DNA from: Panopea generosa
Taxonomy: Eukaryota > Mollusca > Bivalvia > Adapedonta > Hiatellidae
DNA length: 64,000 nt
Reading direction: 5' to 3'
Assembly: GCA_029582155.1 (NCBI GenBank)
Contig: CM055901.1
Span: 21,121,597-21,185,596 of the forward strand
Shown here in pieces: positions 11,779 through 46,900 of this stretch. Both the position numbers and the translations under genes were made by a program. The notes below the pieces were generated by a model that did no database searches, was not told the DNA's origin, and saw only the letters and a program-made list of their open reading frames with translations. Position 1 is the stretch's first letter. Each line of letters begins with the position of its first letter.

Positions 11779-12684
11779 AAAGGCAAAAATAAAAATAACA
11801 ACAAAAATAATCTAATATCATGTTGAAAAACGCACCACAACAAAAGGACTTGCTGTTACATTAGATGAACTCAAAAACGGTCCTAACAGCATCCATTAAC
11901 ACAATATTACCATTAGTTTTTTAATCTATTTATTGGTTAGGTGCCGTATATTTATTTAATGACAATTTTTCTTTTGATTCATCAGTGAAAATGACAAACT
12001 GAATAGAATGTTGGGTATGCAAAGATGAAAAATTTAAAAAAAAATGAGTTGGATATTGGTGCTGAAATATATATATATATATATTTTCTACGAGAAGAAA
12101 TTATTTTTTGTTTTTTATTAGTTTATTGTCTGTCGTGTTATTTAAAGTATTGATGTCAATAATATATGTATGTTTGAGGGCCCCATGGAAGATTGATTCA
12201 TTCAAATTAATTATCCCATAAATTAAGACATTATTGTTATTCTATATTTTTATACACAACATGATAAATAGGTAAGTAATTTGTCAAAAAGACATCAATA
12301 GCACAGAATAAAAACTTTTACATGGAATTTGACTTTAATTTATCATAATAAAAAGAGCCAGTAAAAAGAAGCTGTATTTGCTAAAAAAAATTAGAAGAAA
12401 AAAAAAGTTGCAAAACAAATCTCAATTATTTCAATAACTCAGACGCAGACCCAATTTACAAAAAAACTATATATATTTTAACACCAATTAAACAAATTCA
12501 TCCCCATATTGTTCAAATCTAAAAAAAATTCAACATTTATTCAAAATATCACAATGTCTATCAATTAATATTCAATATCAATTGACTTAAATTACCTTTA
12601 AAGGTAGCGTATCAGGAAAACGCTACATATATTTTTAAAAATAAAATTATTTCTAAAATGGATACAAAACAGCCCATAAATATA

Positions 12685-12983
12685 CAACAAGAGTTGTCAG
12701 AAGACAACAAAGCTCGCCTCTGGGTGTCAAAGTCCAAAAAGGGCCATTACTGTGCCAAAATGCAATCCAGAGTTATGGTTCTTGTCTCTGTGTGTTCCAC
12801 TGATGATGGTGAACACACATGCAAAGTTTCATTCACATCCGAAGAGTGGTTGCATAGATATCTGAAACTTAAACACAAAAGTTTAACCTTGGTATCTACA
12901 GACGATGCCGCCGCCGATGACAATGCCGCCGCCGGCATCATGGCAATAGCTCTCTTTGGACTTCGTCCCGGCGAGCTAAAAAT
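12685..12983. mobile_element. Short 'CAAGAG...GAGCTAAAA' element, unit 1
   Basis: Starts ACAACAAGAGTTGTCAGAAG (a potential small hairpin TTGTC/GACAA) and ends GGCGAGCTAAAAATC. A GC-rich core holds repeated GATGCCGCCGCC words. It carries a 109-codon open frame on plus (12658-12987) and an overlapping 107-codon frame on minus. Both arise from the element and are duplicated with it. Related internal text ('gagttatggttcttgt') recurs at 52420-52790. Confidence 0.6.
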
Positions 12984-13076
12984 CTGACTGGTTTGATATT
13001 CTAAACTAGCATCAATTAAATACATGACGACTTTCTCATCGTGATTTGGATTCTTTTTCAGATGAAACAATTTCTA

Positions 13077-14612
13077 CAATTGTGTGCTAACAGACAATCA
13101 GTACATGGGACTCATGAAGGTTTACCAGTACTCAAGCACAACCCATCTCAGCAAGTGACTGATTACTTTCCCACTTAAATCAGGGGTGAGAAACAATTGA
13201 TTTTGATATGCAATATCATATATTAACCATCAAGGAGACGGTGTCAAGGTGTGGAATTCATGACCCCTGGATTGATAGTCAGAAGTGCTACTGACTCGGC
13301 TTACCAGGCCTGGCAAAGGCAAAAATAAAAATAACAACAAAAATAATCTAATATCATGTTGAAAAACGCACCACAACAAAAGGACTTGCTGTTACATTAG
13401 ATGAACTCAAAAACGGTCCTAACAGCATCCATTAACACAATATTACCATTAGTTTTTTAATCTATTTATTGGTTAGGTGCCGTATATTTTTTTAATGACA
13501 ATTTTTCTTTTGATTCATCAGTGAAAATGACAAACTGAATAGAATGTTGGGTATGCAACGATGAAAAATTTAAAAAAAAATGAGTTGGATATTGGTGCTG
13601 AAATATATATATATATATATTTTCTACGAGAAGAAATTATTTTTTGTTTTTTATTAGTTTATTGTCTGTCGTGTTATTTAAAGTATTGATGTCAATAATA
13701 TATGTATGTTTGAGGGCCCCATGGAAGATTGATTCATTCAAATTAATTATCCCATAAATTAAGACATTATTGTTATTCTATATTTTTATACACAACATGA
13801 TAAATAGGTAAGTAATTTGTCAAAAACACATCAATAGCACAGAATAAAAACTTTTACATGGAATTTGACTTTAATTTATCATAATAAAAAGAGCCAGTAA
13901 AAAGAAGCTGTATTTGCTAAAAAAAATTAGAAGAAAAAAAAAGTTGCAAAACAAATCTCAATTATTTCAATAACTCAGACGCAGACCCAATTTACAAAAA
14001 AACTATATATATTTTAACACCAATTAAACAAATTCATCCCCATATTGTTCAAATCTAAAAAAAATTCAACATTTATTCAAAATATCACAATGTCTATCAA
14101 TTAATATTCAATATCAATTGACTTAAATTACCTTTAAAGGTAGCGTATCAGGAAAACGCTACATATATTTTTAAAAATAAAATTATTTCTAAAATGGATA
14201 CAAAACAGCCCATAAATATACAACAAGAGTTGTCAGAAGACAACAAAGCTCGCCTCTGGGTGTCAAAGTCCAAAAAGGGCCATTACTGTGCCAAAATGCA
14301 ATCCAGAGTTATGGTTCTTGTCTCTGTGTGTTCCACTGATGATGGTGAACACACATGCAAAGTTTCATTCACATCCGAAGAGTGGTTGCATAGATATCTG
14401 AAACTTAAACACAAAAGTTTAACCTTGGTATCTACAGACGATGCCGCCGCCGATGACAATGCCGCCGCCGGCATCATGGCAATAGCTCTCTTTGGACTTC
14501 GTCCCGGCGAGCTAAAAATCTGACTGGTTTGATATTCTAAACTAGCATCAATTAAATACATGACGACTTTCTCATCGTGATTTGGATTCTTTTTCAGATG
14601 AAACAATTTCTA
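13077..14612. repeat. 1,536-bp tandem duplication, unit 2
   Basis: Near-identical partner of 11541-13076. Substitutions I saw are at about 13490 (a to t), 13560 (a to c) and 13827 (g to c). Such similarity in non-coding DNA implies a recent event, or an assembly artefact. Confidence 0.96.
13096..13314 (-). repeat. SINE family A inside duplication unit 2
   Basis: Identical by eye to the copy at 11560-11778; it arrived by the tandem duplication and not by independent retroposition. Confidence 0.75.
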
Positions 14613-22900: not shown

Positions 22901-25900
22901 CTGGCTTAGACACCATCTGGTTCATGTTCAAATTGGTCAGGTGCAAGCTGTCATCATCCCCAGTGTCCCGGTTTCGAGATCGGCGCGGGGTCGAGTTTCT
23001 GCCCTGATGCAGCCGCTCATTCTGAATAAGCCCTGCAGTACTGCCAGCCAAACTTTGGTCTTCAAAATCACTGGGGGCACCTTTGTTGGCATTGCCTGGA
23101 ATGTAATAGACAACGTTTTGAAAATATTAGCTAAATGAAATAACACGTATTTCTTTGTGGAGTTAATTACAATGTATAATGAATGGAAAAGTTAATCTGT
23201 CACTTGCTATTTCATGTACCAGTAACCTGGCATTTTATGTTTTTTCTCAAAAAGTATCTTAGCAATTTCTTGAAATTTGTTCTTGAATAAGAAAGTACTT
23301 TGAGATGCAATATCGTATATCAATCATCATGGGAACTGTGTCCAGTTGGAGATTCAAACTGATGGATTGATAGTCAGACACACTACCAACGGAGCTAACA
23401 AGGTCCGTCTTAATGTTCTTATTGAATTGGGCTTATAAAGGCATTCCAGCACATTTCACAGACAGAAACAGAGAGACATCACAGAGAGAGGAAGAGAGTC
23501 ACACCATCCTTCCACACATAACTGGCAACCTTTCTCACAGATGTTTTGGATCAAGCTGGAAACTCTAAACACGGCAAGGCAATAACTGCATGCTTGCTCA
23601 ATATCCTGACCATTATATATAATCTGGAAAGTTTGCTTGACTTGGTGTTTGGCAACTTACGTAAATATTTAATGTCTTCTGGAACATCGTCAACCTCATC
23701 ATCCATCAGGTCTGTCTGCAGCTTGGCAAAATTGATGAAAACCTGAAAAGACACAAATAATTTATTGTGTGTATGCCATTAAGTTGTGGATATAACCCAA
23801 GGGTAATTTGGCATTTATTATTATTTTAAACTGCAGCCATATAGCAGTTCTGTTGTTTCCTGAAATAATTTTTGGAAAAACTGATTCCTCTATTTAACCC
23901 TTTACTCCATAGATACGAATTTTCCCGTACCAATCACAAGAGGCCTTTGAAAACAGTGCAGGAAGAGTTTAGATTGCTCGTAACGAGCAATCTAAACACT
24001 TCCTGCACTGTTTTCCACTCGGTCAGTTAATATAAGCATAATTTACCTAATAATTCAAAAGCCTTCTATATTAGGTGTCCAAAGGCCTCTATATCAGAGG
24101 CTTCTAAACTTCTATATGAAGTTAAGGGTTAAAATACTAATTGGGGTGGTAGTGTAGTAGATAATGTTGGCCGCTCACAACAGAGGTTGTCAGTTTAATC
24201 CCCAGCTCCACTGGAAGCTTCTCAATAAAAACAATCACTCAATACTGTTTCTACCCAGGAAGCAGACTCAAAAGTAGTTTAGTACAAACTAAAATATTTG
24301 AATTTGTTTCTTATTTGAGAGCTGCCTTTTAACAGACATTCATTTAATATATTTTCATTTACTGTTTCTAGTTTCTGTTTTAAGGAAAATGTTGGACTGA
24401 TTATGTGGGGCAGGCAGGTACAGCATTTGTAATTATCAAGTCAATATATGAGCTAAATAGTAGGTCATACTTGCTTGTGTGTAATTTGTTATATAGAAAA
24501 GACAGATCTTGTATGATGCCGTAGTTTTGTAGAGTGGCCTTACTTGAGACATATCTTAAGTAATGTAGTTTGTCTGGAAGCGTCAGTTTTACTGTAATTA
24601 TTTAGGCAAATAACAACCCAACCTGGCCCAGATTAGCTTGTGTTTACAAATACCTGACCCAGTGTAGTTTGTGTTTACAAATACCTGACCCCGTGTAGTT
24701 TGTGTTTACAAATACCCAGAAACCTGGCCCAGATTGGTTTGTGTTTACAAATACTGACATACCTGATCCATGGTAGTTGGTGTTTACAAATACCGACATA
24801 CCTGATCCAGAGTAGTTTGTGTTTACAAATACCAACTTACCTGATCCATGGTAGTTTGTGTTTATAAATTCCAACTTATATGATCCATGGTAGTTTGTGT
24901 TTACAAATACTAACATACCTGGTCCAGAGTAGTTTGTGTTTACAAATACCAACTTACCTGGTCCAGTGTAGTTTGTTATTACAAATACCAACTTACCTGG
25001 TCCAGAGTAGTTTGTGTTTACAAATACCAACTTACCTGGTCCAGTGTAGTTTGTGTTTACAAATACCAACTTACCTGATCCAGAGTAGTTTGTGTTTACA
25101 AATACCAACTTACCTGATCCATGGTAGTTTGTGTTTACAAATACCAACTTACCTGGTCCAGTGTAGTTTGCATTTACAAAATTCCAACTTATCTGATCCA
25201 TGGTAGTTTGTGTTTACAAATACCAACATACCTGATCCAGAGGAGTTGGTGTTTACAAATACCAACTTACCTGATCCATGGTAGTTTGTGTTTACAAATA
25301 CCAACATACCTGATCCAGAGTAGTTTGTGTTTACAAATACCAACTTACCTGATCCATGGTAGTTTGTGATTACAAATACCAACATACCTGGTCCAGTCAG
25401 TGTGTGTTTACAAATTCCAACTTATCTGATCCATGGTAGTTTGTGTTTACAAATACCAACATACCTGATCCAGAGTAGTTTGTGTTTACAAATACCAACT
25501 TACCTGGTCCAGTGTAGTTTGTCTTTACAAATACCAACTTATCTGGTCCAGTGTAGTTTGTCTTTACAAATACCAACATACCTGATCCACAGTAGATGTG
25601 GTTACAAATACCAACTTATCTGGTCCAGTGTAGTTTGTGTTTACAAATACCAACATACCTGATCCACAGTAGATGTGTTTACAAATACCAACTTATCTGG
25701 TCCAGTGTAGTTTGTGTTTACAAATACCAACATACCTGATCCAGAGTAGTTTGTGTTTACAAATACCAACTTATCTGGTCCAGTGTAGTTTGTGTTTACA
25801 AATACCAACATACCTGATCCAGAGTAGTTTGTCTTTACAAATACCAACTTATCTGGTCCAGTGTAGTTTGTGTTTACAAATACCAACATACCTGATCCAC

Positions 25901-28900
25901 AGTAGATGTGTTTACAAATACCAACTTATCTGGTCCAGTGTAGTTTGTCTTTACAAACACCAACATACCTGGTCCAGAGTAGTTTGTGTTTACAAATACC
26001 AACTTACCTGGTCCAATGTAGTTTGTCTTTACAAATATCAACATACCTGGTCCAGAGTAGTTTGTGAGACAGAGTAGTCCTCAATATTTAGCTTTGCCCT
26101 GACAGACTCTATCTGTCCAAACAGAGTTGACAGTTTGACGTCTGATCCCAGCTGGTACTGCAGCATGTTGTGATGTTTCTCCTTGATGGTGGACTGAGGA
26201 AACTCCTTCATGAAGAAATCCATGACAGGATCCATTTCTGGGGTCTCGCCAGAGACGCGTACTATCACAGTATAGCCATCTCCAAACCTGAAGTGTAAGG
26301 TATATATTAGGTTTATGAAAATGTTCGAGGTCTCAACCTACATATTTAGCAGTTTTTAGAACATAATACACCCACAACATATTTTTGATATTAACCTCAT
26401 GTTTTTGTAACCTTGTGATTCATAGCTCTATGCTTTCTATATAACTTGGCTCTCGTAGATAAATGCTTAACTACTTTCCAACTTGACAAATATTTTTTTT
26501 AATGAAGTTTAATACCATTTTCAACATATTTCAGGTTATATATGGCATATCCAGTTTTGTTGGTTGAGAAAGACTTCAGAATGAATCTGAGTAGAACCAC
26601 TGTACTTCCACAAGTAACTGGCAAACTTTCTCACATAAAGTCTTTTGAGCAAGCAGGACTCGAGCCAATCTTAGCGGTGAGATGTAAGTGATCTTAAGAT
26701 GGTGCCTTAAACCACTCAGCCATGGGGGACCCTTGTGGGAATATATAAATTACGTCATTTTTCAAGGTAAAGTGATGTTATTTTCAGACGTTACATCATA
26801 CAACAACTGACAGAAACTATTTTGCCTGATTTATTCTTCTTCCTCACAAGTGATCTGTTAAGTTTTTATTTTTTTTATCTTTTTTGTGGATCTATCTTCA
26901 ATAAAAAAATATTGATCTTTTAAAAAAAATATATTTTTAATGAAAATAAAAAGGGTCAAGGCCGCATGAAAGTTACGAGGTGGGCGAGGATGACAATTAA
27001 GCAATCAATTTATTATGGCCTTAAAAGAAGTATATCACGATAACACACCATAAATGTGACAGTCTTCAAAAATAAAATAATCATCAAAATGGGTAAAAAG
27101 CATCTCATTATCATTAATAATATAATTTGAATAGTTAAGTATGTCAAATCTGCCAAAACGTGACAACATCGACAACTTAAATGAGAGTGATAAACTTGAA
27201 ACCAAATCCCCATTCTTAAAATAGATGGTATTCAAATACTGTTTGATGACATTCACATCGTCACTTCTGACTCTTTCTAAGATGAAACAATATTTACTAT
27301 GTTTGTAAACCTTTACAACGGATCGAACTGAAATCAAAATGAAATCATGCAACTCATATAATACGTCACAAAATATGTTGCCATTTTAAGTGGGAAATCT
27401 ATCTTACGGTAGTCTAACCTAGGTGCATAGCCCAAGTTAGGAAAGTCTTTTTAAATATACTATTTAGTCATTTTTAAATAGGTATCTTTTTGGCAATATG
27501 GGGTCAGTGAGTATATATAAGCAATGTAAATGTTTATAGACGATTTTAAAATTTCAAAATCCTGATATACTCCCTTTAAATGTACACTCTACGAGCTCAG
27601 AATTATTCATGTTCGCTCACTTAAAGGGGAACAACCCATGATAACGTAAAAAAATGAAAATGATCCAAATTCAATGGACAAGTTGAGATGGCATAATTTG
27701 GGAGTTGTTTTATAAAATGTTCAATTAAATGTTGATTAATAAATATCAAATGACCAATGACTACAGGGGATACACTTACTTGTTTTTCAGATGTTGTATA
27801 CTTCCAAGGCACCTGAATCTACCATTCACCATAATGGCGAGACGCCCACACAAGGCCTCACATTCCTCCATACTTAAATATAAAATATATAAATGTAAGT
27901 CCAAGGTGTTTCAAAGGAATCAAATTGGTTCTTAAATGAACAAAATGGTGCCAATCCATGTGAACCCATAATTTGTATGGGTGAAAGGTAAGTGGTGATT
28001 AGACAACAGTGCTTTAGATTACTCAGCCACAGACGACCATAATTATAAGTGATGTTTTTATATCAGTTGGAAGATCAAAGAGTAGTAGCTACGTTTGAGG
28101 CCAGTCCCAGTTAGCTCAGTCGTTAGCATAGCTGTCTATCAATCGAGGTGTATTGAGTTTGAATCCCCGCCTAGCCACAGTCTATGTGACAACTGATATA
28201 TGACATGTAAACCCTCTATGGCATGAAAATGATGCTAAATATTCAAACAAAGAAAACCAAACTACCTATGAGATGTAAGAATGACAGATCGGCCGTCCTT
28301 GACAATGTTGCTAATACAGTTCCACAAGAAGCGACGTGCTCCGGGGTCCATACCTGTAGTTGGCTCATCCTGAAATTATACATGTTTAATCAACCTTGGA
28401 TTCTCGTACCACACATATTGCAGACAAGACAGAAGTTAATCTATTATAATGTGAATCTATAAAGTGAATCTACAATGTGAATCTATAATGTAAATTTATA
28501 ATGTAAATCTATAAAGTGAATCTATAATGTGAATCTATAAAGTGAATCAATAATGTGAATCTATAAAGTGATCAATAATGTGAATCTATAATGTGAATCA
28601 ATAATGTGAATCTATAATGTGAATCTATAATGTGAATCAATAATGTGAATCTATAATGTGAATCTATAATAATATTGTGGTCAAAGAGATGCCATCTGAG
28701 AATTAAATATATGGTTAGTCACAAGAACGTTGCTCTGTCAAATTTTTTACATATATCTTGGTGCCAGGGTTGGATGTTTGTCAAATATTTTACATCTATC
28801 TTGGCGTTAGGGTTGAATATCTGTCAAATATTTTACATTTATCTTGGCGCGAGGGTTGGATGTCTGTCAAAATTTTACATCTATCTTGGCACAAGTGTTG

Positions 28901-31900
28901 GATATCTGTCAAATATTTTACATCTTTCTTGGCATAAAGGTTGGATATCTGTCAAATGTTTTACATCTATCTTGGCAAATATTTTACATCAATCTTGGCG
29001 CGAAGGTTGACTATTTGTCAAATATTTTACATCTATCTTGGCACAAAGGTTGGATATCTGTCAAATATTTTACATCTATCTTGGCACAAAGGTTGGATAT
29101 AATGTCAATTTTATTTACATCTATCTTGGCGCTAAGGTTGGATATCTGTCAATTTTATTTACATCTATCTTGGCACAAAGGTTGGATATCTGTCAATTTT
29201 ATTTACATCTATCTTGGCACAAAGGTTGGATATCTGTCAATTTTATTTACATCTATCTTGGCACGAGGATTGGATATCTGTCAAATATTTTAAATCTATC
29301 ATTGGCGCGAGGTTTGGATATCTGCCAAATGTTTTACATATATCTTGGCGCGAGGGTTTGATATCTGTCAAATGTTTTACATCTATCTTGGCACAAGGTT
29401 GGATATCTGTCAAATGTTTTACATCTATCTTGGCAAAAGGGTTTGACATCTTTACATTTATCTTAGGGATTATAGATTAATTTTCCCAATAAAGAAAATA
29501 TATTGCAGCTGGAATAATAAATAGCTTTCCACAGAAAAATACAGCAGTAAACAGGTAACTTAGCAAAATTATTATAGATGGATCTCTGATATGGGATATT
29601 GCAATAAATAGTTTACTTACCAAAAATATTATAGATGGATTTCCAATGAGGGATATAGCAGTGGATAGTTTCCTCTTGTTTCCTCCAGAATAGTTTGTTG
29701 ATATTTTGTTGGCATGTTGGATTAGTCCTAGCTTACGGATACCCCAGTCTGCTATCTGCACATACAATGACAATATTCTCATATGTGTAAATTATTTCAC
29801 TACATACAGTAAAACAGCCACTTCTATTGAGCAGCCACTTGTCTTAAGCAGCCACAGTTGCTTTTTCCCATTTCTATATCAGAGCAAGTAAATCTTTATT
29901 TAACAACAACCTGTCGTATAAGACTACTTTTGCACCTCCCCTTGGCTGGCTGCTTAAAACAGGTTTGACTGCATGCAATTAATCTCAAAGAAACACATAT
30001 AAAACACTACTTTGAGTCACTATTCTCTCATCAGTCAGAAAATTATATCTTTGCTTGTTTTAAACAGTATCTGTGGATATAACAAAATAATATATACAAA
30101 ATCTTTGTCATATATCAGTTAAATTTTACAAGTAGTTTTAAGGATGATCTAGACTGCTTTTAGTCAAACATGAAGTACAGAGGAGGTAGCACATAGAGTG
30201 TCTTTAGAGTGTTGGCCACTCTTGCCAAATGGTTGCTGGTTCGATCCAGTTTTATTGGTGGAGGAAAACCTAGGAATGAATCTGAGTAGAACCAACAAAC
30301 TTTCTTGCAGGTTATCGGACTAAACTGGGTTCGAACCGATTACCTCAGCAGTGAGAGGTAAGTGGTCATAAGATGATAGCAATATAGACCATTTGGGCAC
30401 AGATGACCCTTATACTTTATCTAACAATCTAACCCTGACCTGTGAAGTTAAACAAGAACACCACAGGCAGGTGCAGATGCTCATACTATTTAATATCCAT
30501 TAAGTAGGTAAAGGTCAGTGACACAAACTTTTTTAACATGATATTGATCACTAAACAGAATCGATACTATTTCTGATAAACAGGTTTTAGAGCCTAAAGT
30601 ATTGAAATTAAAGTTACTTAGCTATATACTTTATCTTTATAACATGATATGAACATGTTTAGGAAATTTAACAAATTAAAAACTATAACATAAGTAGCTT
30701 GTTCTGAAGCTGACAAAAAGCTGCGCTAAACGTAAAAGTTTAACCAGCAGACGAAGGAAACAATGCCCCTGTTAATGCTAGTGCCACCGCCAGGTTCATG
30801 CCAATAGCTTTTCATTTTTTTTTCAAATAGAAGAGCTCAAAAATGCCTTTTTATTTCCGGCTACTCCCATAATGCTACTTACCTGTTTCACTTCCTGTTC
30901 TGGTATACCTCGGAGCCGTGCATAGAAGTGAAGATGTTCAACCCCAGTCAATAAGGGGTCAAGGGCATCAAACTGGGGACAGTAGCCAATATTCTGTCTC
31001 ACCTGTACCATCTCATTCAGGATGCTAACAAAAAATATTACACATTCAAACATTCAATTTTTATCCAAACAGATTACACCGTATGTTGGAACATGTTATG
31101 AATCTTTGTTACTGTCGGCAAATAGCTTTATAACTGGTGTTATTTATTTGTACATCCAACATAAATAAAGGTTCTTGTATACTTACATACATAATATTCA
31201 ATCATTCAATCATTGCTCTACTGGCTATATATACAGAATACTGCTTGGCCTGATGTTCTACCACCGGACCACTCTCAAAACTTTAACTAACTAAATTACA
31301 AAATCAATTGCAGTTTTCCAGTCTACTGACTATACATACTTCAGAATATTATTAAAATCATTCTGATATGTACCATCACTAAAATCTTGCTAAAATCAAA
31401 ATTTGTGGAACGCATGATCCAGTGGTAGACCATGTGTGGTTTCCTTGAGCAAGACGCTTTTTCTTTATAAACTTAGTACTGGTTCTACCCAGGAAGACTG
31501 AGGGTGATTTGAATCAGTCGTAATAACTTGCTTCACAACTGAAGTAAAATAAAATTAAAGAATCAAGAATCAAAACTTAAATCAAGATTTGATTCGACTG
31601 TTCTTTCGTTTATATAGTTAATGTCACTCTTTCCTGAAAGGTTAACCAGTATGTGAACACACCCATCTTTGCAAGTAACAAATAATAAGTTTCCCACTTT
31701 GAATCAGCAGTGAGAGACAAATGACAATGAGACGCAAAATCATATATCAATCATCGAGGAGACTGTGACCAGACAGGGATTCAAACTCTTGACCAATGGA
31801 CTGATAGATGAGTAACAAACTCAACTAACGAGGCCAGACCACCTGACTGTTTTTTAATCACCTGTGATTGTTCACATAGGCATTTCCTCTTGTAAGCCTT

Positions 31901-34900
31901 TCATCTCCTGTCAACATTTTGAATGTGGTTGTCTTGCCTGCCCCATTGACGCCAAGCAGCCCAAAACATTGCCCTTTTGGCACACCAACACACAGCCTGT
32001 CAACCGCTGTCAGCTGACCCTTCTTCCCTCTTGCATTGAACTCCTAATAAAACATAGAAACACAATATATGGAGGTTCTATATGGTTAATGCAAGATTGC
32101 TATTTTAAAAATATGAACAGAGAAAAATTGTGAACAAGGTACGATATTCACATCTCCAAATTCTGACACATAAAAAGTTTGTAAGCTTCTTTACATTTGT
32201 GAAATAGACACCATGATGCTCAGAATCAGGGTCTAGCTGGAAGTTTTTTTGATATACATAATTTTATCACTCATTTGCATTTTGGTGATTAAACAATGTC
32301 CGTTATAATACATTAAAGCGTCATTGCCTGTCGGGTCTTTTTCCCTGCAAGCTCTGAACAATTTTTTAGTTAGAAGGCATGTACAGTATGTTAAAACATA
32401 ATTTGGACATAGAGGGAATAATTGTATGAGAGCAACTTAAACAGATCAGTTTGTATAGCAAATATGTCACTGCTGCATATATTTCTCAACTGGTAATCTA
32501 TATATTGATGAAAAACTCTATTATCATTGATTGACAAAACAAGACGCTGGAGAACTGCTAGCAACACAAAAAAAAAATTCCAGTTTACCAATTGTGTTGC
32601 CATAGCAACTACAATTTTCTGCTGGACTGAAAAAGTAATAAAATGGAGTGTATGATCTCCTCTATCCACAAGATCAGTTTTACAAATGTTCCAGTAGCTT
32701 GGATACAGACATTATCTCCTTATTGCCCTCTTTCAACATGCCAAGTTTCACAAATGTAGCTTGGATACTTTTTTTGTTACCACAGGATCAAAGTTGTACT
32801 ACAGGATCAAAGTTGTATCTATTATTTTACCTATTTTGTTATTATTGCCCTCTTTCAACATGCTAAGTTTCACAAAGCTGGCTTGGAAACATTTTAAGTA
32901 TTTTTATCGGATGAACAGCGGGCAATCCTATAGTCCCCTCCAAAGAAACTGGTATGTGACTAATAATCATACAATATTCATTACTTTTTATCATTCTTTG
33001 TTCCCCACCCCAAATACACACCTTTGTCAGGTTTTCCAACCTCATAACATCGTCTTGTGCATTACCACCCATAACACGTCGTCTCTCGCGGGCAACATCA
33101 TCATCTTCATCATCCAAAGATGAGCCTAAAGGCTTCTTTACTCTGAAAGATGCATACAACAGTCATCATTAACAGTGAGCTTATCATAAAAACCACAAAA
33201 CTGTGTTTTTGTCAATTCATTGCCTTGCTGAAAGACTTAACATTAGGTAATTTTCTACACTGTTGTTTGTTTGTTTGAATGTTTAGCGTCATTTTTATGT
33301 CATTAGGGTTACCACTCTTTTCTGGGATCCTGGAGGGCTTATCAGTACTTGATCATAATCTCTGTGGTTAACTGATAATTTTCTCACTTGAATGAGCAGT
33401 GAAAGACGCATGACAAAGGGACACAATGTCTTGTATCAATCATCACAGAGACTACGACCAGGTGGGGAATCAAACTCGAGAGCCTTATACTGATAGTCAG
33501 ATGAACTTTTGACTGAGCTAATTGGGCCTGGCTATTAGTGTAGAGTGTATGATATGGCTTGTAACTTTTAAATTATATCTCTATACATCTTAAGGATGAT
33601 GTTTATAATAACAAGAGCTGTCACAGGGACAGAGTACTCGACTATTCGAATATTTGTCACAGAAGTACAAATTTGATAGAGACTGATGACAAATTCAAGC
33701 AAATAAGAGTTATCTAACTTCCAAATTGAGAAAATTGAGTAGGTCTTATGACTGCAATATCTTGTATGAAGTTTCAATCAAAAACATGCAGTGACTGATG
33801 AGTTATAAAATTTCTAAGTAAAACAAAGGCTCTGGCAATAATTTGTATTATATTCATGCAAGAGTTATCTAACTTAGTTGTTCTAGTAGGGTTGATGAAT
33901 AGGAAGGTTTGTGTAAAGTTTTAAGGCAATACATGCAATGGTTACTGAGGAAAGGACTTGCATGGAAAACTTTAACAAAGGTGTGACACCGACACCAACG
34001 CCCGGGTAAGTAGAAAAGCTCTCTTTATTCTCCGAATAGTCGATTTTAAAAATGAAATTCAAACTAATATTGAAACAAGCAATTTAGAGAATGGATATCC
34101 CTTGCCTATTGAGGGCACAGGCTGAACATTCAATGTCCACTTGATGTCTGTACCAAGTTTCATCAGATTCAGATAAAAATGTTGGAGTTGCAGAATGTTG
34201 TGAGATTACTATGACAATCTCAACAATACTTGGTGGGATTCAACCAATTCATCAACCAATAATGCCTACAAAGTGGTTTGTGAAGTTTCTATACGATTTG
34301 TCACCTTTTATTGGAATAACTCTTCTGGAATGAGGTTTAATGCCATTTTCAACACTTTTCAGATACACTGTATATGGCATATCCAATTTTATTGGTGGAT
34401 GTTGTTTTTGTTGTTGTTGTATGATGTTTAGCGTCGCTTTCAACGATTTTTCAGTCACACGCTGACTGGTGTCTACTTGAGACAGTATTCTAAGCGCTGT
34501 CACACTGGAGTATCATGCCGCAGACACATGGTATGATACCCCACCGAGTAACATTATACTGACACCGGGCTGACCTGACCTAGAACTTTCCTCTAAATGC
34601 TGAGCATCAAGCGAGGGAGCTTCTAGAACCATTTTTAAAGTTTTTGTATGACCCAGCTGGGTATTGTACCCAGGACCTTCAGCATGCAAGGCAGACGCTC
34701 TACCACTAGACCACACAGCGGTTCTTTATTGGTGGAGGAAGACCTCAGAATGAATTTGAGTAGACACACATAACTGGCAAACTTTCTCGTATGAAGTTTT
34801 TTGAGCGAGCTGAACTTGAACCTACATCCTACATGGTGAGAGGCCTGTGATCTTAAGATGACACATTAGACCACTTGGCCACGAAGGACCCCTTTTCATG

Positions 34901-37900
34901 GGAATAAAAAAGAGAAAATTATTTTTGACGATGACTCACCTGGACCTGATGCAGAAGTTATACTCTATTAGAAGATTGATGATGAAGAACAAGATGCCCA
35001 GCATGAACATACAGAACAGGTTTCTGCCCACCTGCTCCCAGTCAAATGGGTTAGGGAGTCCACCTCCCTCCCCGAGTCTTTCATACACGTCTGCAAACAA
35101 CTGGTTCTTAGCCATGTCGAACAAGGCCGCGCCCAAGACAGTACTGCGGCAGGAGCAGAAACACCTTTTTCAGTATTGCATTGATGTTCTTCAGATCCTG
35201 CAGGTGAACAAAGTTTCGATTCAATAATTTTATTAGGCGTAACATTTATAAAAGTAAATTATGTTTATTTATTTTTAGCTCAATTGCGAAGAAAGCTCAA
35301 TGCCTATGTGAACCGCTTCCTAGGTAATGAATGTTGTTTTTTGAAAGGTATCAGGTTGAGCTGGGATGGAACCCCTCTTGTGTGAGCATCAAAACCCTAT
35401 TCCACAACACTACCACCCTGCTTTTTATTGCCTTTCACAAGGTGGTTATCAAAACAACATATTATAGAGAGAGTACAAACAAACATTGACAATTCCAAAG
35501 ATAACCATAATATAATTATATAGTGCTTTTTTATATAATAATATTAAATACAATAAAACTAATATAATGAGCACAAATGAAGAAAAGAAAGCAATAAGAA
35601 TGAATAACATTAATTGTTTATTACAAACAACATTACTTTCAAACAAATAAATATGCATTACTTTTTCAAATATTTGTATTTAATTATTTGACAAAAGGGG
35701 ACATGACATGACTAGCCCTGTCCATTGCAGAAAGCTGGCGACCAAGGCTGAGGCGACCATGACCGAAGGCAGTGAGGTTTGTATTGATCAACGCAGTTCC
35801 ATTGAACAGAGGCAGTTCCATGGAACTGAGAATAGAAACGCAGCCAAGTGGCTGAAATGATGCAAGGTGATCATGATGAGAAGGTACAAGCGAATTGGTG
35901 TAAGCCCCTGCTTGTACAAGTGTATAAGTATAGGTATGCAGGGATGGCAGGCAAATTTGTTTATAAAAACAAGAGGCCCAAGAGGGCCTGAGGACGCTCT
36001 ACTGACTCATAATGGCCATAGCACTTTTTGAAATTTCACAATATTTACCTTAGAACTTCTAATCGTAAGGATAATTTATATCAAATATGAACACATCTAA
36101 CTGACTGGTTGTTAAGAATAAGATTTATAACAATGTTCAATTTTAACCATTTTGTGACCCCCACCCTGCCCATTTTAGAAAGTCAATCCTTAATATCGAA
36201 AAAAATCTTATTTGTTATGACTAGAAGATGCTTCAAGTCTCAAACTGAATAAAAAAAGTCATTAATGACTGAAACAAAAAAGAATTTTCCATTTTTCAAT
36301 AGTATTCCTATGTAAAACTTAAAAAAACCTTACAGGGGTATAAATACAAGATCCTTGATTTGTACAAACTTTAAATCCATATTCATTGGGATAATCTATA
36401 TCAAATATGAACAAATTTGACTGATTGATTGTTGAGAAGAGTTTAACCCTTTTTTTACCCAACCTGGTCCCTTATGGAAAGTCAATTATCCTTATTGAAC
36501 TAAATCTTATTTCCTATAACTTGATAATACTTCAGAACTCATACTGATCAATTATTTAACCTAAATGTATGAAAATTTTTCTTTTTTCCCATAGTATCCC
36601 TATGTAAAATGTTAAGTCCCCTTTACAGAAAGCGATTTTTGTAATTCCCAATTTTTACCCTTTTGAGGCCTTTCCTGACCCCTTAAGATGTTGGAACCCA
36701 GTCATTTTTACAAATCTGAACCTCCTTGAACAAACAAAGCTTCTGTGAAAATATATGCAATATCAGCTCTTTTTATTCAAAAAAAAATAAATTAATGTTT
36801 ATTATAATAACATGTGTCCCCGAACTTGAACCCTCGGGCGGGGTAATTTCTAACCCTAGGGATGACATTTGAACAGATCTAAAAGAACTATAGTTGGTTA
36901 TCATTACTACATAAACATTTTCAAAATCTGCTGGGCGGTTCATGAGAAGAAGATTTTTTAAGTTTTAAACTAATTTTTAGTAACAGTGGCCATCTTGAAT
37001 TTCAGATAAAAAAAAATAAAATCTTCTGTATAGTCTCCTATGCAACAGAAACATCCATGTGACGTTTGAGTTTAATTGGACCTAGTGGTTTCAGAAAGTG
37101 CTGCTAACGGACGACAGACATCAGAGAACAGAAGACAGGACAACTGACAACGCACCATTGTATAAACCCTTCTGGCTTTTGACCAGTAGAGCTAAAAAAC
37201 ACAGCCTAAAACCAATCAGGACATGTGCATAGACTGGTTACATAACATAGAGCCTAGATAGTAGGCAGTGCAAACACTGAAGTGTCTACCTTGGTTACAG
37301 TCTGTGATTTATTGACTGCATATATAACCAAGTATAGTTGTATGAAGCATACAACAGACAGCACCATTCAAGCTTCAGGAACACAAAATCATGGAGGTGG
37401 TGGAAGTGGATGGCGGTTAGCAAGAGGTGTTATTGCAATGATGTGCACTTTAAGAATGAAGCTAACCCAGGGCCTACATAAAGAAAGATAATCCTGACAG
37501 ACGCTTACTTGCCAATACGAGGCTCAATACACTGTCCCCTGTACCCGTGAAGCTTATTTTGAATATAGACAAAGAACGGTTACCAAACAGCCCATACTTA
37601 TCTATAAATAGAATAGCAGCCTGGAAACATAAGTCTGTAAGATGTAACTAGGTTCTCCCGGGTCAGTTATTTTGATACTACATTGTCAAAATGAATATTT
37701 GTGTTCTTTAAAACCTGGTTGAATAAATTCATCCTGCTCTTGACAAATCTGTGTGAAATACTTCACATTATATTCAAATCATATAAATGTAAGAAAACAA
37801 CAACATTATCAAGGGGTAGTTCTATCATTATTATTACTAGCCACTTGTTTTCTTACATTTACATAATTTTTTATATATTTTTTTACTATAACAAATATAG

Positions 37901-40900: not shown

Positions 40901-43900
40901 CTTCCTTTTATTATATTGTACCATTGTATGAAGCTTAATGAAATTCCATCTGGTACTTTTCAAGTTATGCTCCGGACAAGAAAAAATATCAAAGGGAAAT
41001 ATATCAAAGGGCAATAACTCTGTAATTAGCAAGAATAGAGTTATGTTTCCTGTACACTGCACTTCCTCTCATTATATTTTACCATTGTATGAATCGTGAT
41101 GAAATTCCATCTGGTACTTTTCAAGTTATGCTCCGGACAAGAAAAAATATCAAAGGGCAATAACTCTGTAATTAGCAAGAATAGAGTTATGTTTCTTGTA
41201 CACTGCACTTCCTCTTATTATATTCTACCATTGTATGACGTTTGATGAAATTCCATCCAGTACTTTTCAAGTTATGCTCCGGACAAGGAAAATTGCGGAC
41301 AGACCGACCGACCGACCTCAGGGTGACTCCAGTATACGCCCTCAAAACTTCGTTTGTCGGGGGTATAATAAGCAGGGATTTTGACGGAAACAATCATGAG
41401 CTGTAGTTTATCACCACACATCTTTCAACCAAATATGAATCAAATACATCCAATCCTTCAAGAGATATCGAGCGGAAACCAATTTCTTGACATTTGTCAA
41501 TAATCTAAGTCCAAAAAGGGGCATAACTCCATCAAAAATCATCAGACTGGAACAAAATATGTATTGCCTGTATGACCTGAATGTGAAGTCACACACCAAA
41601 TTTGGTTTAAATCTGTTCTTTAAAACTCAAGATAAAAGTCAGAAACCATTTTTACAGGACAGTGGTGATACAATATGCCCCCACCACACCCCCGCATTGA
41701 AATGGCGGGAGCATAACAAAGTTGGGTCTCAGAGGTCACAACTCCTGTAAACTTGACCAATGTTCACAAATAATATTCAGGTACTCATGAAACAGTAATT
41801 ATTTAAAAGACCCCTTAAGAAGTTATTGATTAGATGCGAAACCAATATTTACTTTTTACCTCGGAAACACAAATAAACAGATGGACTGGCGTAACACTTA
41901 ATTCTCCTTCACTATTCTTTGGATGGTGGGGACATAAAAATAGATTTATACAGTTTTAAACCTATGGAACAGAATCAGGTTCTGATACCACAAATGATTA
42001 AATCTCTTCTTCTATTTATAAGATAACCTTCTCATAAGAACTTGATAAGTCATATTTTAAAACAACACCTACTGGATCATCCTCTTCCAGAAACTCTATG
42101 ATGAAGGTTGCCATGGTAGCCGTGGTCCCAAGGAAGATATTCACGGATTTCAAAACTACAAGGGCTGTACTTGGCACGCTGAATATCCTCGAGAATGGAT
42201 ACATCATAGGAATCATAGCCCATCTGTAGCATATAAAATAAGACAATTTTATATCATGGCCCATCTGTAGCATAATAAAATAAGACAATCTTATCATGGC
42301 CCATCTGTAGCATAATAAAATAAGACAATTTTATCATTGTCTATCTGTAGCATATAAAATAAGACAATCTTATCATGGTCATCTGTAGCATATAAAATAA
42401 GACAATCTTATCATGGCCCATCTGTAGCATAATAAAATATGACAATTTTATCATGGGCCATCTGTAGCATAATAAAATAAGTCAATTGTATCATGGCCCA
42501 TCTGTAACATAATAAAATAAGTCAATTTTATCATGGGCCATCTGTAGCATAATAAAATAAGTCAATTGTATCATGGCCCATCTGTAACATAATAAAATAA
42601 GTCAATTTTATCATGGGCCATCTGTAGCATAATAAAATAAGTCAATTGTATCATGGCCCATCTGTAGCATAATAAAATAAGTCAATTTTATCATGGGCCA
42701 TCTGTAGCATATAAAATAAGACAATCTTATCATGGCCCATCTGTAGCATAATAAAATAAGACAATTTTATCATAGGCCATCTGTAGCATAATAAAATAAG
42801 ACAATTTTATCATGGCCCATCTGTAGCATATGAAATAAGACAATCTTATCATGGCCCATCTGTAGCATAATAAAATAAGACAATCTTATCATGGCCCATC
42901 TGTAGCATAAAATAGAACAGTAATTTTTGTCATGTGCCATTTGCAGAATAAAATAGGATTTTTTTTTATCATTGTCCATCCATGGTAGAGTACAATGATA
43001 AACTTCATCATTGTCCACACACAGTAGAATATAATAAAAAAAGAAATGTCACTGTTAAGTGTCATACGCCCCCCAACATGTCATGATGTTATGTTGATCA
43101 TTTGTAGCAAGTATCATTAAAATTCATCTATGTATGACAAATTTACAGACCAGAAACGAAATCTCAAACAAACTTAAATTCGCGACCTTGACCTTTGAGG
43201 TACGGGTGTGGGTCTTACTCGCGACACTTCGTCATGTTCTGTTGATCATTTGTTGCAAGTATCAACAAAATCCATCTATGCATGACAAAGTTACAGGCCT
43301 GAAAACGAAATACAGGACGGAAGGACGGATGGAAGGATGGACGGGACAGATGGACTGCTGTGCTTACTATATGCCACCCAAAATATCTTTTTGGGGGACA
43401 TAAAAAATCTTATTCCTTAAAGTCCAAAACTTTCTGCCTGGGTAGAGAGTTATGTAGGAAGTGGCTAATGTACAACAGTTGTATTTAGTACCTGTCAGTT
43501 ATGGTACAGTGTGCTGAAAATAGACCAATTATAATCGTCTGACGAGAGGGTATAAACACAGATCCATGTGTAATTGTTTACAATTCAGAGTGCATGCTCA
43601 TGAGCTCCTCCCTAGAATTTCAATTTTTTTTGGCATACAACAAATACTTTTTAGAAAATATTTTTTCCCAAATTAAATATATTAACAATTTTTTAATTTT
43701 TATTATAATCTTGTTGTATATAATATTATAACACATACAAAGCAGTGGTGACTGAAAGCTTGAAAAAGGGTTCTCTGATTTGAATCATGTATAAAGTTAT
43801 GATAATATAAAATCTGCCCCAGAGCCATCTTGTGAAATGAATCCTGTATATAATATAAAATCTGCTCCAGAGCCATTTTGTGAATTGAATCATGTATATG

Positions 43901-46900
43901 ATAATATAAAATCTGCCCCAGAGCCATCTTGTGAATTGAATCATGTATATGATAATATAAAATCTGCCCCAGAGCCATCTTGTGAATTGAATCATGTATA
44001 TGATAATATAAAATCTGCCCCAGAGCCATCTTGTGAATTGAATCATGTATATGATAATATAAAATCTGCCCCAGAGCCATCTTGTGAATTGAATCATGTA
44101 TATGATAATATAAAATCTGCCCCAGAGCCATCTTGTGAATTGAATAGACAAGCTATATACCTGTTATCATATGGAGTTGAGGGTATATATAAATCATCAA
44201 ACTGTGAGCATGACTGCTTTAACAACACAGAATATTGTGTAGGTTGTAACTTAAACCACAATTAGCCCAGTATTTCTCTCACTATTTTAGTACCACAGTC
44301 ACGGACATTCTTTAGTTTATACTAATTTGTTTTTTAGCTTGATTGTGATGAAAGCTTGAAGCTTATATAAACCGCTCTAGAGTCTGCTTCCTGGGTAGAA
44401 CCAGTACTGAGTGTTGTTTTATGAGAGGCATCAGATCGACCGGGAGATCGAACCCGCAACCTCTGGCGTGAGTGGCCAACACGGTATCCATTACACTATC
44501 GCCCCACTTGAACATTCTTTAAAGGACATACATTGCACACACATATTATTACCAATATTGATGTTATATGATGTTCAGTATCACTTTCAACAATTTTTCA
44601 GTCATATCATGATGGTATCTACTCGAGACAATATCCTAAGCACTGCGACACTGGAATAACATGCCACAAACACATGGTATAATACCCCACCCAGTCACAT
44701 TATACTGACACCAGGCTGACTAGACCCAGAACTATCTTCTAAATGCTGCGTGCCAAGTGAGGAAGCTTCTAATTCCATTTTTCAAGAGTTTGGTTTTATG
44801 ATCTGGCCAGAATTTCTGCATGCAAGGTGAATGCTCTACCCCTAGACCACAGCTGCGGTATTATGGAATGTAAATGGAGGTGTCCAAGGCCATAACTTTC
44901 AGTTTTGCTTTTTCAAAAATGTATTACATTTCCTTGTTTTTTTTGGTTTCTTTTTAATGGATTAAACACTATTTTCAATATACAACACAGGTTATATATA
45001 TGGCATATCCAGTTCAACTGGAGAAAGAAGACCTTGTGAAGAATCTGATAACAACTACAGTCCTACTTCAAGTAACTGGCAAATTTTTTCACTTAAAGTT
45101 TTTGGACAGAGCTGGGCTCAAATCCAACACCTCAGAGGTGAGATGTAAGCGGTCATTAGATGATAGTGCCTTGCATCGCTCAGCAGCAGACATCTGAGTT
45201 TAGTTTTTAGTTTTTTAGGTCTGTTACCAATATTAACTTAAATTCATGATGCAGCAATTGAACAAACAAAATTGACAATGTCACTTACCCATAGAGGAAC
45301 AAGAGTGCCACAAGGCACGGACCATTGACGGGAGACACATATGCCCTGTTGTTGAACGCCAGGAAGATGAAGATACACAGTAATGAAGGTATAATGTAGT
45401 TTATCTGCAAAATAATGACAATATAATATAGTTTATCTGCAAAATAATGAAGGTAAATATACTTTATCTGCAAAATAATGAAGCCATAATATAGTTTATA
45501 TGGAAAATAATGAAGAAATAATATAGTTTATCTGCAAAATAATGGAAGAATAATATAGTTTATCTACAAAATAATGAAGGTATAATATAGTTTATTTACA
45601 AAATAATGAAGATATAATATAGTTTATCTGCAAAATAATGGAAGAATAATATAGTTTATCTACAAAATAATGAAGGTATAATATAGTTTATTTACAAAAT
45701 AATGAAGATATAATATAGTTAATCTGCAAAATAATGAATGGTATAATATAGTTTATCTGCAAAACAAAAGACATCTTTTTTTTAAAAAGCATACAACAAA
45801 TTGAACAGTTTTTATTTCAAATATCAGCAAAACATCTGTTTGCAATACCCTCTCACCTATCAACTGTAACATTTCCATTGTAAAATAACTTTTTCATTGT
45901 AAAAAAATTTACCCAACCACCATCAAAAAATGAAATAATGTTGAAAAACAAAAGTGAAAAAAAAAAATAATCAAGAATAAACATGATAGACATGACTTTT
46001 ATTTTCATCTAAAATATGAATAAAAATTCCTGGCCAAAAACACGTAATTTGAAAATTCATATATTGGACTCAAAATATGACTCGAGATGGGTCTGATATC
46101 TGAGTGATACTCACAAACAAATATTCAACTCAATTTTAGGTTCCTGATTGATTATTAGGTAAATCAATAATTTTTTACAACTATAAAGATGTCTAAATAT
46201 CCAAGATTCTCAATTATGGGTTTAGGACAGAGTTTTGCTTAAACTCGTCACCTCAGAGTTGAGAGTATTTGTTATATGACACTGCCTTAAACAACTTGGC
46301 CACAGATGACCCCATATCGCATTTCACATTCTAATGCACTGTATATAAAATTTATTATTATGACACTATAGGAATAAAAAATCTGGGTGTTGATGCATGT
46401 GTGACATCTAAATTATCATGCACAAAATTTGAGATCATTCTTAACCTCTTTCAAGGTATCATGATCAAACTTTTTATCTTTATCACCTCCATTTGAAGAG
46501 AAGATGCTTAACACAAAGAGCAAACCGGTTGAGTACAATGTATACCAAACATCATGGAAACTGTGAATGGGCTGGGATTTAAACTTACAACCGCTGGATT
46601 GATAATCAAATGTTCAAACAGGGCCCAGTTTGATGACTTTCTACTTGATACCTACCATGTCCCAACAGAAGTTTGAAACCCAGTAGATAATGGGGTTGAT
46701 TCCGCTGACAAACTGGAGATGTTTGGAGTTTGACGTACGTTCTTCTATCAAGTACATGGTGAAGCTAGCAGGGACGAAGGACATGGCAAATATCACACAG
46801 ATGGCTATCATGATGTCCTTGAAACTTGAGTACCTGCAGCACAGCAAGACAAAATGTTAACCATCAAATGCATCTTTCCATTCAGTTTGATTAAAAGGCA

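Follow-up and report, generated by a model that had tools for sequence, protein, structure and literature searches.

Tandem duplications of exon-intron boundaries have been described in amphioxus under the name of mirages; in the globin genes BflGb6 and BflGb9 they occur on either side of the intron, and the Adh3 mirages are covered in the same report by citing earlier work (PMC3087553). According to that report, many of the units, though not every one, keep AG or GT, array length is unstable between haplotypes or tissues, and the units evolve in concert; a model of intron gain is put forward, and regular splicing is said there to be left undisturbed, on the basis of reverse transcription PCR for the globins and of the Adh3 data (PMC3087553). 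Two human genes are also comparable. IFI6 (6-16) contains a minisatellite with multiple donors, and two of its downstream units are used, giving alternative isoforms (PMC4526556), and UBC makes use of dual-specific AGGT sites arranged in tandem (PMC10809524). Here we describe a 39-bp minisatellite in a 64,000-nucleotide stretch of the genome of the bivalve Panopea generosa (the window; contig CM055901.1, positions 21,121,597 to 21,185,596 of the forward strand, assembly GCA_029582155.1), which lies in an intron of an ABCA transporter gene and consists of copies of the splice-donor junction of the preceding exon. This array is a mirage, and the phenomenon is thus already named and has its own literature. 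The earlier work on amphioxus mirages is reportedly that of Canestro (2002, Nucleic Acids Research (NAR) 30:2871), and the original account of the IFI6 minisatellite is said, from its title alone, to be that of Turri (1995).

The donor-junction array and its founder exon

On the minus strand of the window lies a gene for an ABCA1-like transporter, of which the second half is encoded there; it was located by tblastn with pieces of human ABCA1, and the concatenated open reading frames (ORFs) of this gene match ABCA1 with a phmmer E-value of 6.4e-207. The gene model comprises 20 exons with 39 identified junctions, and more exons may be missing; all features of the gene given below lie on this strand. 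Exon e_262 (26047-26287), called w22 in an earlier note made from the sequence alone, is defined by splice signals and by a phmmer match of 80 residues to human ABCA1 (8e-26), with SVSQTTLDQ at the end of both. Its true donor GTATGT, recognized by splice signals, occupies 26041-26046 and opens a phase 0 intron of 2304 nt, which leads to the next exon found (23742-23661, VFINFAK...; tblastn with ABCA1 pieces and splice signals).

The repeated unit joins the last 20 exonic nt of e_262 (26066-26047, the QTTLDQ end) to the first 19 intronic nt. This unit 0, delimited by segmentation at 26028-26066, is followed in the intron by 37 copies (24604-26027), as established by TRF, segmentation and a genome pattern search. 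TRF reports 24682-26066 as an array of 39-bp period and 24621-24716 as an edge of 31-bp period, and segmentation resolves two units of 31 nt (24704-24674 and 24673-24643) and a diverged outermost unit. The earlier description of a 39-bp minisatellite built from the splice-donor junction of an ABCA exon is confirmed by both methods; the array is real, but it has 37 intronic copies rather than about 36 and starts at 26066 rather than at 26047. The exonic 20-mer is exact in three intronic copies and at least 17/20 identical in 30 of the 37. With up to three mismatches it occurs 31 times in the window, always within 24623-26066, versus 0.00 occurrences expected, and a chance origin of the array is therefore excluded. 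The perfect donor CAGGTAAGT occurs 12 times in the window versus 0.40 expected, 11 times in the array and once as a true donor of the ABCA gene. CAG/GT (the slash marks the junction) is kept in 28 copies, namely as CAG/GTAAGT in 11, as CAG/GTATGT in 13 and in a weaker form in 4, and the other nine have AT in place of GT (8 CAG/AT, 1 CAT/AT), as had been noticed for a fraction of the units.

A second frame of the array, different from that of the exon, is open for 189 residues at 24644-25213 as a 13-aa repeat, because 39 = 3 x 13. The exon-frame translation of the 31-nt distal units (24643-24704) resembles VFINFA of the next exon, which is probably a coincidence.

The junction of e_262 founded the array, since its exonic half is fixed by protein conservation, copies of the unit are found nowhere else, and a paralogue has an array-free intron in the matching position. 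Searching the 1.47-Gb genome for a 34-nt pattern of the unit, three mismatches being allowed, gave at least 27 matches (all match counts of the genome pattern searches are lower bounds), every one of them in the donor array, and the reversed control gave none; 41 of 43 loci lack the unit, the remaining two being the donor-array locus itself. This paralogue lies on the same chromosome (C8:28871453); its intron begins with the donor AAT/GTAAGT, and that junction has no copy; the second paralogue (C2:60805099) appears to be without the intron. The claim that the array descends from the exon therefore holds, and the 39-bp unit does not behave as a dispersed satellite, which had been named as the finding that would make the exon similarity secondary. 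Two other origins were considered and rejected. Gain of the intron by tandem duplication is contradicted by the lack of a unit copy near the acceptor of the intron and by the paralogue, which has the same intron without the array; a hint of an origin from an exon-exon junction, given by the two 31-nt distal units, was post hoc, and as the 8-nt difference is easily deleted between GGTA repeats, it was left as a coincidence.

Mean identity is 0.856 for units 1-32 versus 0.704 for the distal units 33-37. A gradient of divergence away from the exon is not significant over the 37 units (rho -0.18, p 0.30), the distal edge alone being diverged. Similarity between units peaks at even lags (0.90-0.91 versus 0.86-0.87), and thus a 78-bp dimer was amplified. 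Selection against decoys had been offered as one possible reason for the CAG-AT units. Parsimony on the unit tree, with unit 37 excluded and the shifted parts of units 4, 10 and 12 masked, traces the nine AT units to about two events (two at position +1, none at +2) that were later amplified, and it places 7 events in the 9 donor columns versus 37 in the other 30 (probability of so few 0.23, of so many 0.86). Since the AT units represent so few mutations and the donor columns vary no more than the others, this selection is unsupported, and nothing indicates that the donors are selected at all. The exon-derived half of the unit likewise has no coding signature, 11 of 27 events falling on third codon positions (p 0.55).

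Other copied junctions and the comparison with mirages

Three further junctions of the same gene have copies, which went unreported in the earlier note, so that the copied junctions of the window gene are the donors at 26046 and 29620 and the acceptors at 42223 and 45404. TRF and junction comparison place 17 clear decoy copies of a 40-bp unit (28+12, with 12 exonic nt) at 42253-42928, upstream of the ABCA exon e_422 (42073-42223), whose true acceptor lies just before 42223; a diverged edge copy without AG follows at 42929-42967 (junction comparison). All 17 decoy acceptors keep AG, and 12 of them score above the true site, 3 equal to it and 2 below. Exon e_454 (45289-45404, splice signals; true acceptor just before 45404) is accompanied by 11 decoy copies of a 32-bp unit (8+24, with 24 exonic nt) at 45413-45764, also found by TRF and junction comparison, in which AG is kept in 8/11 and four copies score above the true site. 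Genome searches with these acceptor units gave at least 12 matches for e_422 and at least 7 for e_454, each solely in its own array. The donor junction of e_297 (exon 29755-29621) is duplicated once as a 57-bp unit (29544-29657; TRF and junction comparison) with 45/57 positions identical and the decoy GT lost (CTAAGT). Outside the window, 2 of 47 sampled junctions are copied. In the C8 paralogue, an ABCA gene, the donor junction of exon e_283 is spanned by an array of 73 bp x 11 (C8:28874326-28875141, or 33326-34141 of its stretch), and at L017 (1600-1811), which is another ABC gene, the donor junction of an ABC-transporter exon is duplicated with a 106-bp unit, 40/40 identical around the donor.

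The four testable properties of mirages, which concern anatomy and evolution, are all found in the ABCA gene. The repeats cross the exon-intron boundary (20+19 nt in the donor unit, 28+12 and 8+24 nt in the acceptor units); both donor and acceptor sides are duplicated; AG or GT is kept in many but not all units (28/37, 17/17 plus the edge copy without AG, 8/11 and 0/1); and concerted evolution excludes the edge of the cluster, as the two identity values for the donor array indicate. The amphioxus mirages, as far as excerpted, share boundary-spanning units on either side, frequent retention of AG or GT, diverged edges and concerted evolution, and the Adh3 unit range of 10-72 bp includes the unit length of the ABCA array (PMC3087553). 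In contrast to them, the host here is an ABCA gene, the copies number 37, four junctions are copied in one gene, and the case is known from one assembly. No boundary-spanning array in an ABCA gene or in a mollusc was found in the open-licence literature, where no search was aimed at that pairing.

That the array, or its number of copies, results from mis-assembly is scarcely credible. Knowledge from a single assembly would leave room for it, and so would exon e_352 (34940-35197), which has no single open frame and consists of two coding parts in different frames with a one-base frameshift that is either genuine damage to the gene or a mistake of the assembly; but the units differ from one another in an orderly way, and the same gene contains three other independent junction arrays.

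We consider it quite probable that the mirage arose by near-neutral tandem duplication, that the true donor is still used, and that the decoys are silent or used at a low level. This reading is supported by the diverged edges and the even-lag pattern, as in the amphioxus mirages (PMC3087553), and by the recurrence of such copies at three more junctions in the gene and at the two sampled elsewhere; near-neutrality is suggested by the donor columns, which show neither excess nor deficit of change. The tandem duplication would have affected a 39-bp segment that by chance covered both the 3' end of the exon and the start of the intron. Slippage or unequal exchange would then have enlarged the array, and concerted evolution would have kept its units alike, in part through the 78-bp dimer. 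It would persist and be tolerated because the exon-side copy is left intact, with the genuine exon end and its donor, and all extra copies are intronic. The cell most likely keeps using the first-transcribed, exon-defined true donor, and any leaky use of a decoy would yield one product, a transporter that ends in ...TTLDQ-V-C and lacks the VFINFA tail.

Strength of the decoy donors and consequences of their use

The statement that the true donor is trailed by dozens of its own copies is borne out by the 37 counted here, 11 of which are stronger than the true donor in pairing with U1. The duplex energies with the 5' end of U1 are -8.6 kcal/mol for the true donor, -12.2 to -12.4 kcal/mol for the 11 best decoys and -3.5 to -14.2 kcal/mol for 15 other donors scored. 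By a position weight matrix (PWM) made from the 19 donors of the gene, 11 decoys are better than the true donor and 13 are equal to it. Masking of the decoys by RNA structure was considered and rejected. Most of the array (24900-26066) has a predicted fold of -329.7 kcal/mol, but a stretch of eight consensus units is predicted to be no more stable than arrays of shuffled units in tandem (z -0.64); predicted inaccessibility is similar for true and decoy donors.

An mRNA spliced at any decoy keeps the intronic part of unit 0 and reads GTA TGT TGA, that is V-C-stop (26046-26038, with the in-frame TGA at 26038-26040), and therefore the protein ends at 26038 and the VFINFA tail encoded by the next exon is lost. 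The earlier proposal that use of a decoy truncates the protein before VFINFA stands for V-C-stop, but the other ending it gave, V-S-W-Y-L-stop, is unreachable, since unit 0 is read first. As in IFI6, the minisatellite units offer splice donors after an exon, but there the downstream units are used for isoforms (PMC4526556, in excerpt), whereas reading through the ABCA array meets a stop at codon 3, so that an open coding isoform of the IFI6 type would not arise. In a cryo-electron microscopy study the corresponding VFVNFA motif sits in a helix that pins the two nucleotide-binding domains (PMC7932691, in excerpt). With decoy 1 the stop would lie 30 nt before the junction. The limit usual for nonsense-mediated decay is the 50-nt rule, and because the stop falls within it, the decoy 1 product likely escapes decay; transcripts spliced at decoy 2 or farther downstream would be subject to decay. 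The VFVNFA motif is reportedly needed for cholesterol efflux by ABCA1, to judge from the title of a paper cited by the structural study.

These properties would also suit a regulated decoy array, in which the true donor competes with stronger copies downstream and the outcome determines how much full-length ABCA is made, the V-C-stop transcripts being decayed or giving a tail-less protein. Both U1 pairing and the PWM rank 11 of the 37 decoys above the true donor and 13 equal to it, VFINFA is lost in every decoy product, and IFI6 provides a precedent for the use of downstream repeat donors (PMC4526556). However, the donor columns are not more conserved than the others, GT is lost in nine units, the paralogue does without an array at that junction, and the likeness of the acceptor and donor arrays suggests a general by-product; we regard such regulation as improbable. 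The same conservation result applies to a platform for U1 small nuclear ribonucleoprotein, whose intronic sites would keep the transcript from being polyadenylated too early (telescripting) or retain U1 close to the exon. Judged from sequence, this seems very unlikely: GT is present in 28/37 units and 11 have the full 9-nt match to U1, but the two acceptor arrays of the gene have no such role. The earlier note, which had suggested a U1 platform as one possibility, was right on anatomy and ancestry and over-read function.

The AG/GT of a unit could in principle serve as both acceptor and donor, shortening the intron stepwise and rebuilding the same junction each time, so that by construction the mRNA would be unchanged. 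The AGGT core is found in 28/37 units, and tandem units with such a core are used in human UBC (PMC10809524). In UBC, however, the sites bound coding monomers and act as 5' and 3' sites, according to the same excerpted report, whereas the ABCA units are intronic and the acceptor lies outside the array, no unit copy being found near the acceptor at 23742 that would let one unit provide both sites of the intron. As an acceptor the AG of the unit has a low mean score of 2.0 (maximum 5.7), which stands at the 77th percentile among the 2041 AGs of the gene span and still falls within the low end of the leave-one-out range of the true acceptors (-0.6 to 13.8). Such a recursive or dual-specific ladder is given very little weight.

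Frequency of copied junctions

Tandem arrays make up 20% of the span of the gene, and of 300 intron positions drawn at random, 23% fall in repeated sequence. Under random founding, calculated throughout with the array density of the window (17 arrays, hand-merged from TRF rows), 0.91 of the 39 window junctions would be expected inside a founder unit versus 4 observed (P 0.014), in a window that had been selected for such a feature. Outside, the count is 2/47 versus 1.09 expected (P 0.30) in a non-random sample taken entirely from ABC-transporter genes, and combined it is 6/86 versus 2.00 (P 0.017). The outside sample includes 24 junctions from the two paralogues (38 candidates, 14 dropped by eye as not real) and 23 picked by eye from the 15 loci L005-L019, 14 of which contributed junctions and L011 none. 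These loci come from 19 of 323 PF00005 candidates scored, of which L020-L023 were dropped for their long open frames and L003-L004 duplicate the paralogues; an array beside the L007 acceptor ends short of it and is uncounted.

A junction hotspot for array founding is thus possible, not shown. It seems unlikely that splice junctions are such hotspots in the wider sense, with a few percent of them wrapped in decoys, a positional rule overriding higher-scoring sites, and occasional leakage feeding new isoforms and introns; if true, the rule would select the first-transcribed donor and the exon-nearest acceptor in a minisatellite-rich genome. Three points weigh against near-neutral duplication with silent decoys. 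Use of the true donor is itself something that we infer from sequence; the better U1 pairing of 11 decoys, together with the use of downstream donors in IFI6 (PMC4526556), means that silence is not assured; and the excess of copied junctions in the window may reflect something beyond chance that favours junctions.

The occurrence of boundary-spanning minisatellites here, at 6/86 junctions, in addition to amphioxus and one human gene, suggests that tandem duplication can produce them as a matter of course where a genome is rich in repeats, which bears on intron evolution and on annotation errors. The ABCA gene could serve as a ready-made test of splice-site choice in native context, position versus strength, with its 37 downstream donors (11 stronger) and its 17 and 11 upstream acceptors (12 and 4 above the true sites).

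Three perfect donors in tandem (CAGGTAAGT, 15-45 nt apart) give at least 572 matches genome-wide versus 244 for the reversed pattern, counted as overlapping matches and not as loci; those among the matches listed are spread over many places on their contigs. At C3:39989337-39989723 an array of approximately 34-bp units combines an acceptor-like tract (CTTTTTCTCCCACTGCAG), about 6 nt and the perfect donor CAGGTAAGT; these units are potential tandem micro-exons. Elsewhere in the window, two identical ORFs of 133 aa on the plus strand (12586-12987 and 14122-14523), 1536 bp apart, indicate a recent direct duplication, and a tRNA-like Rfam match on the minus strand (34649-34720; 31 bits, E 0.017) is perhaps part of a short interspersed element (SINE).

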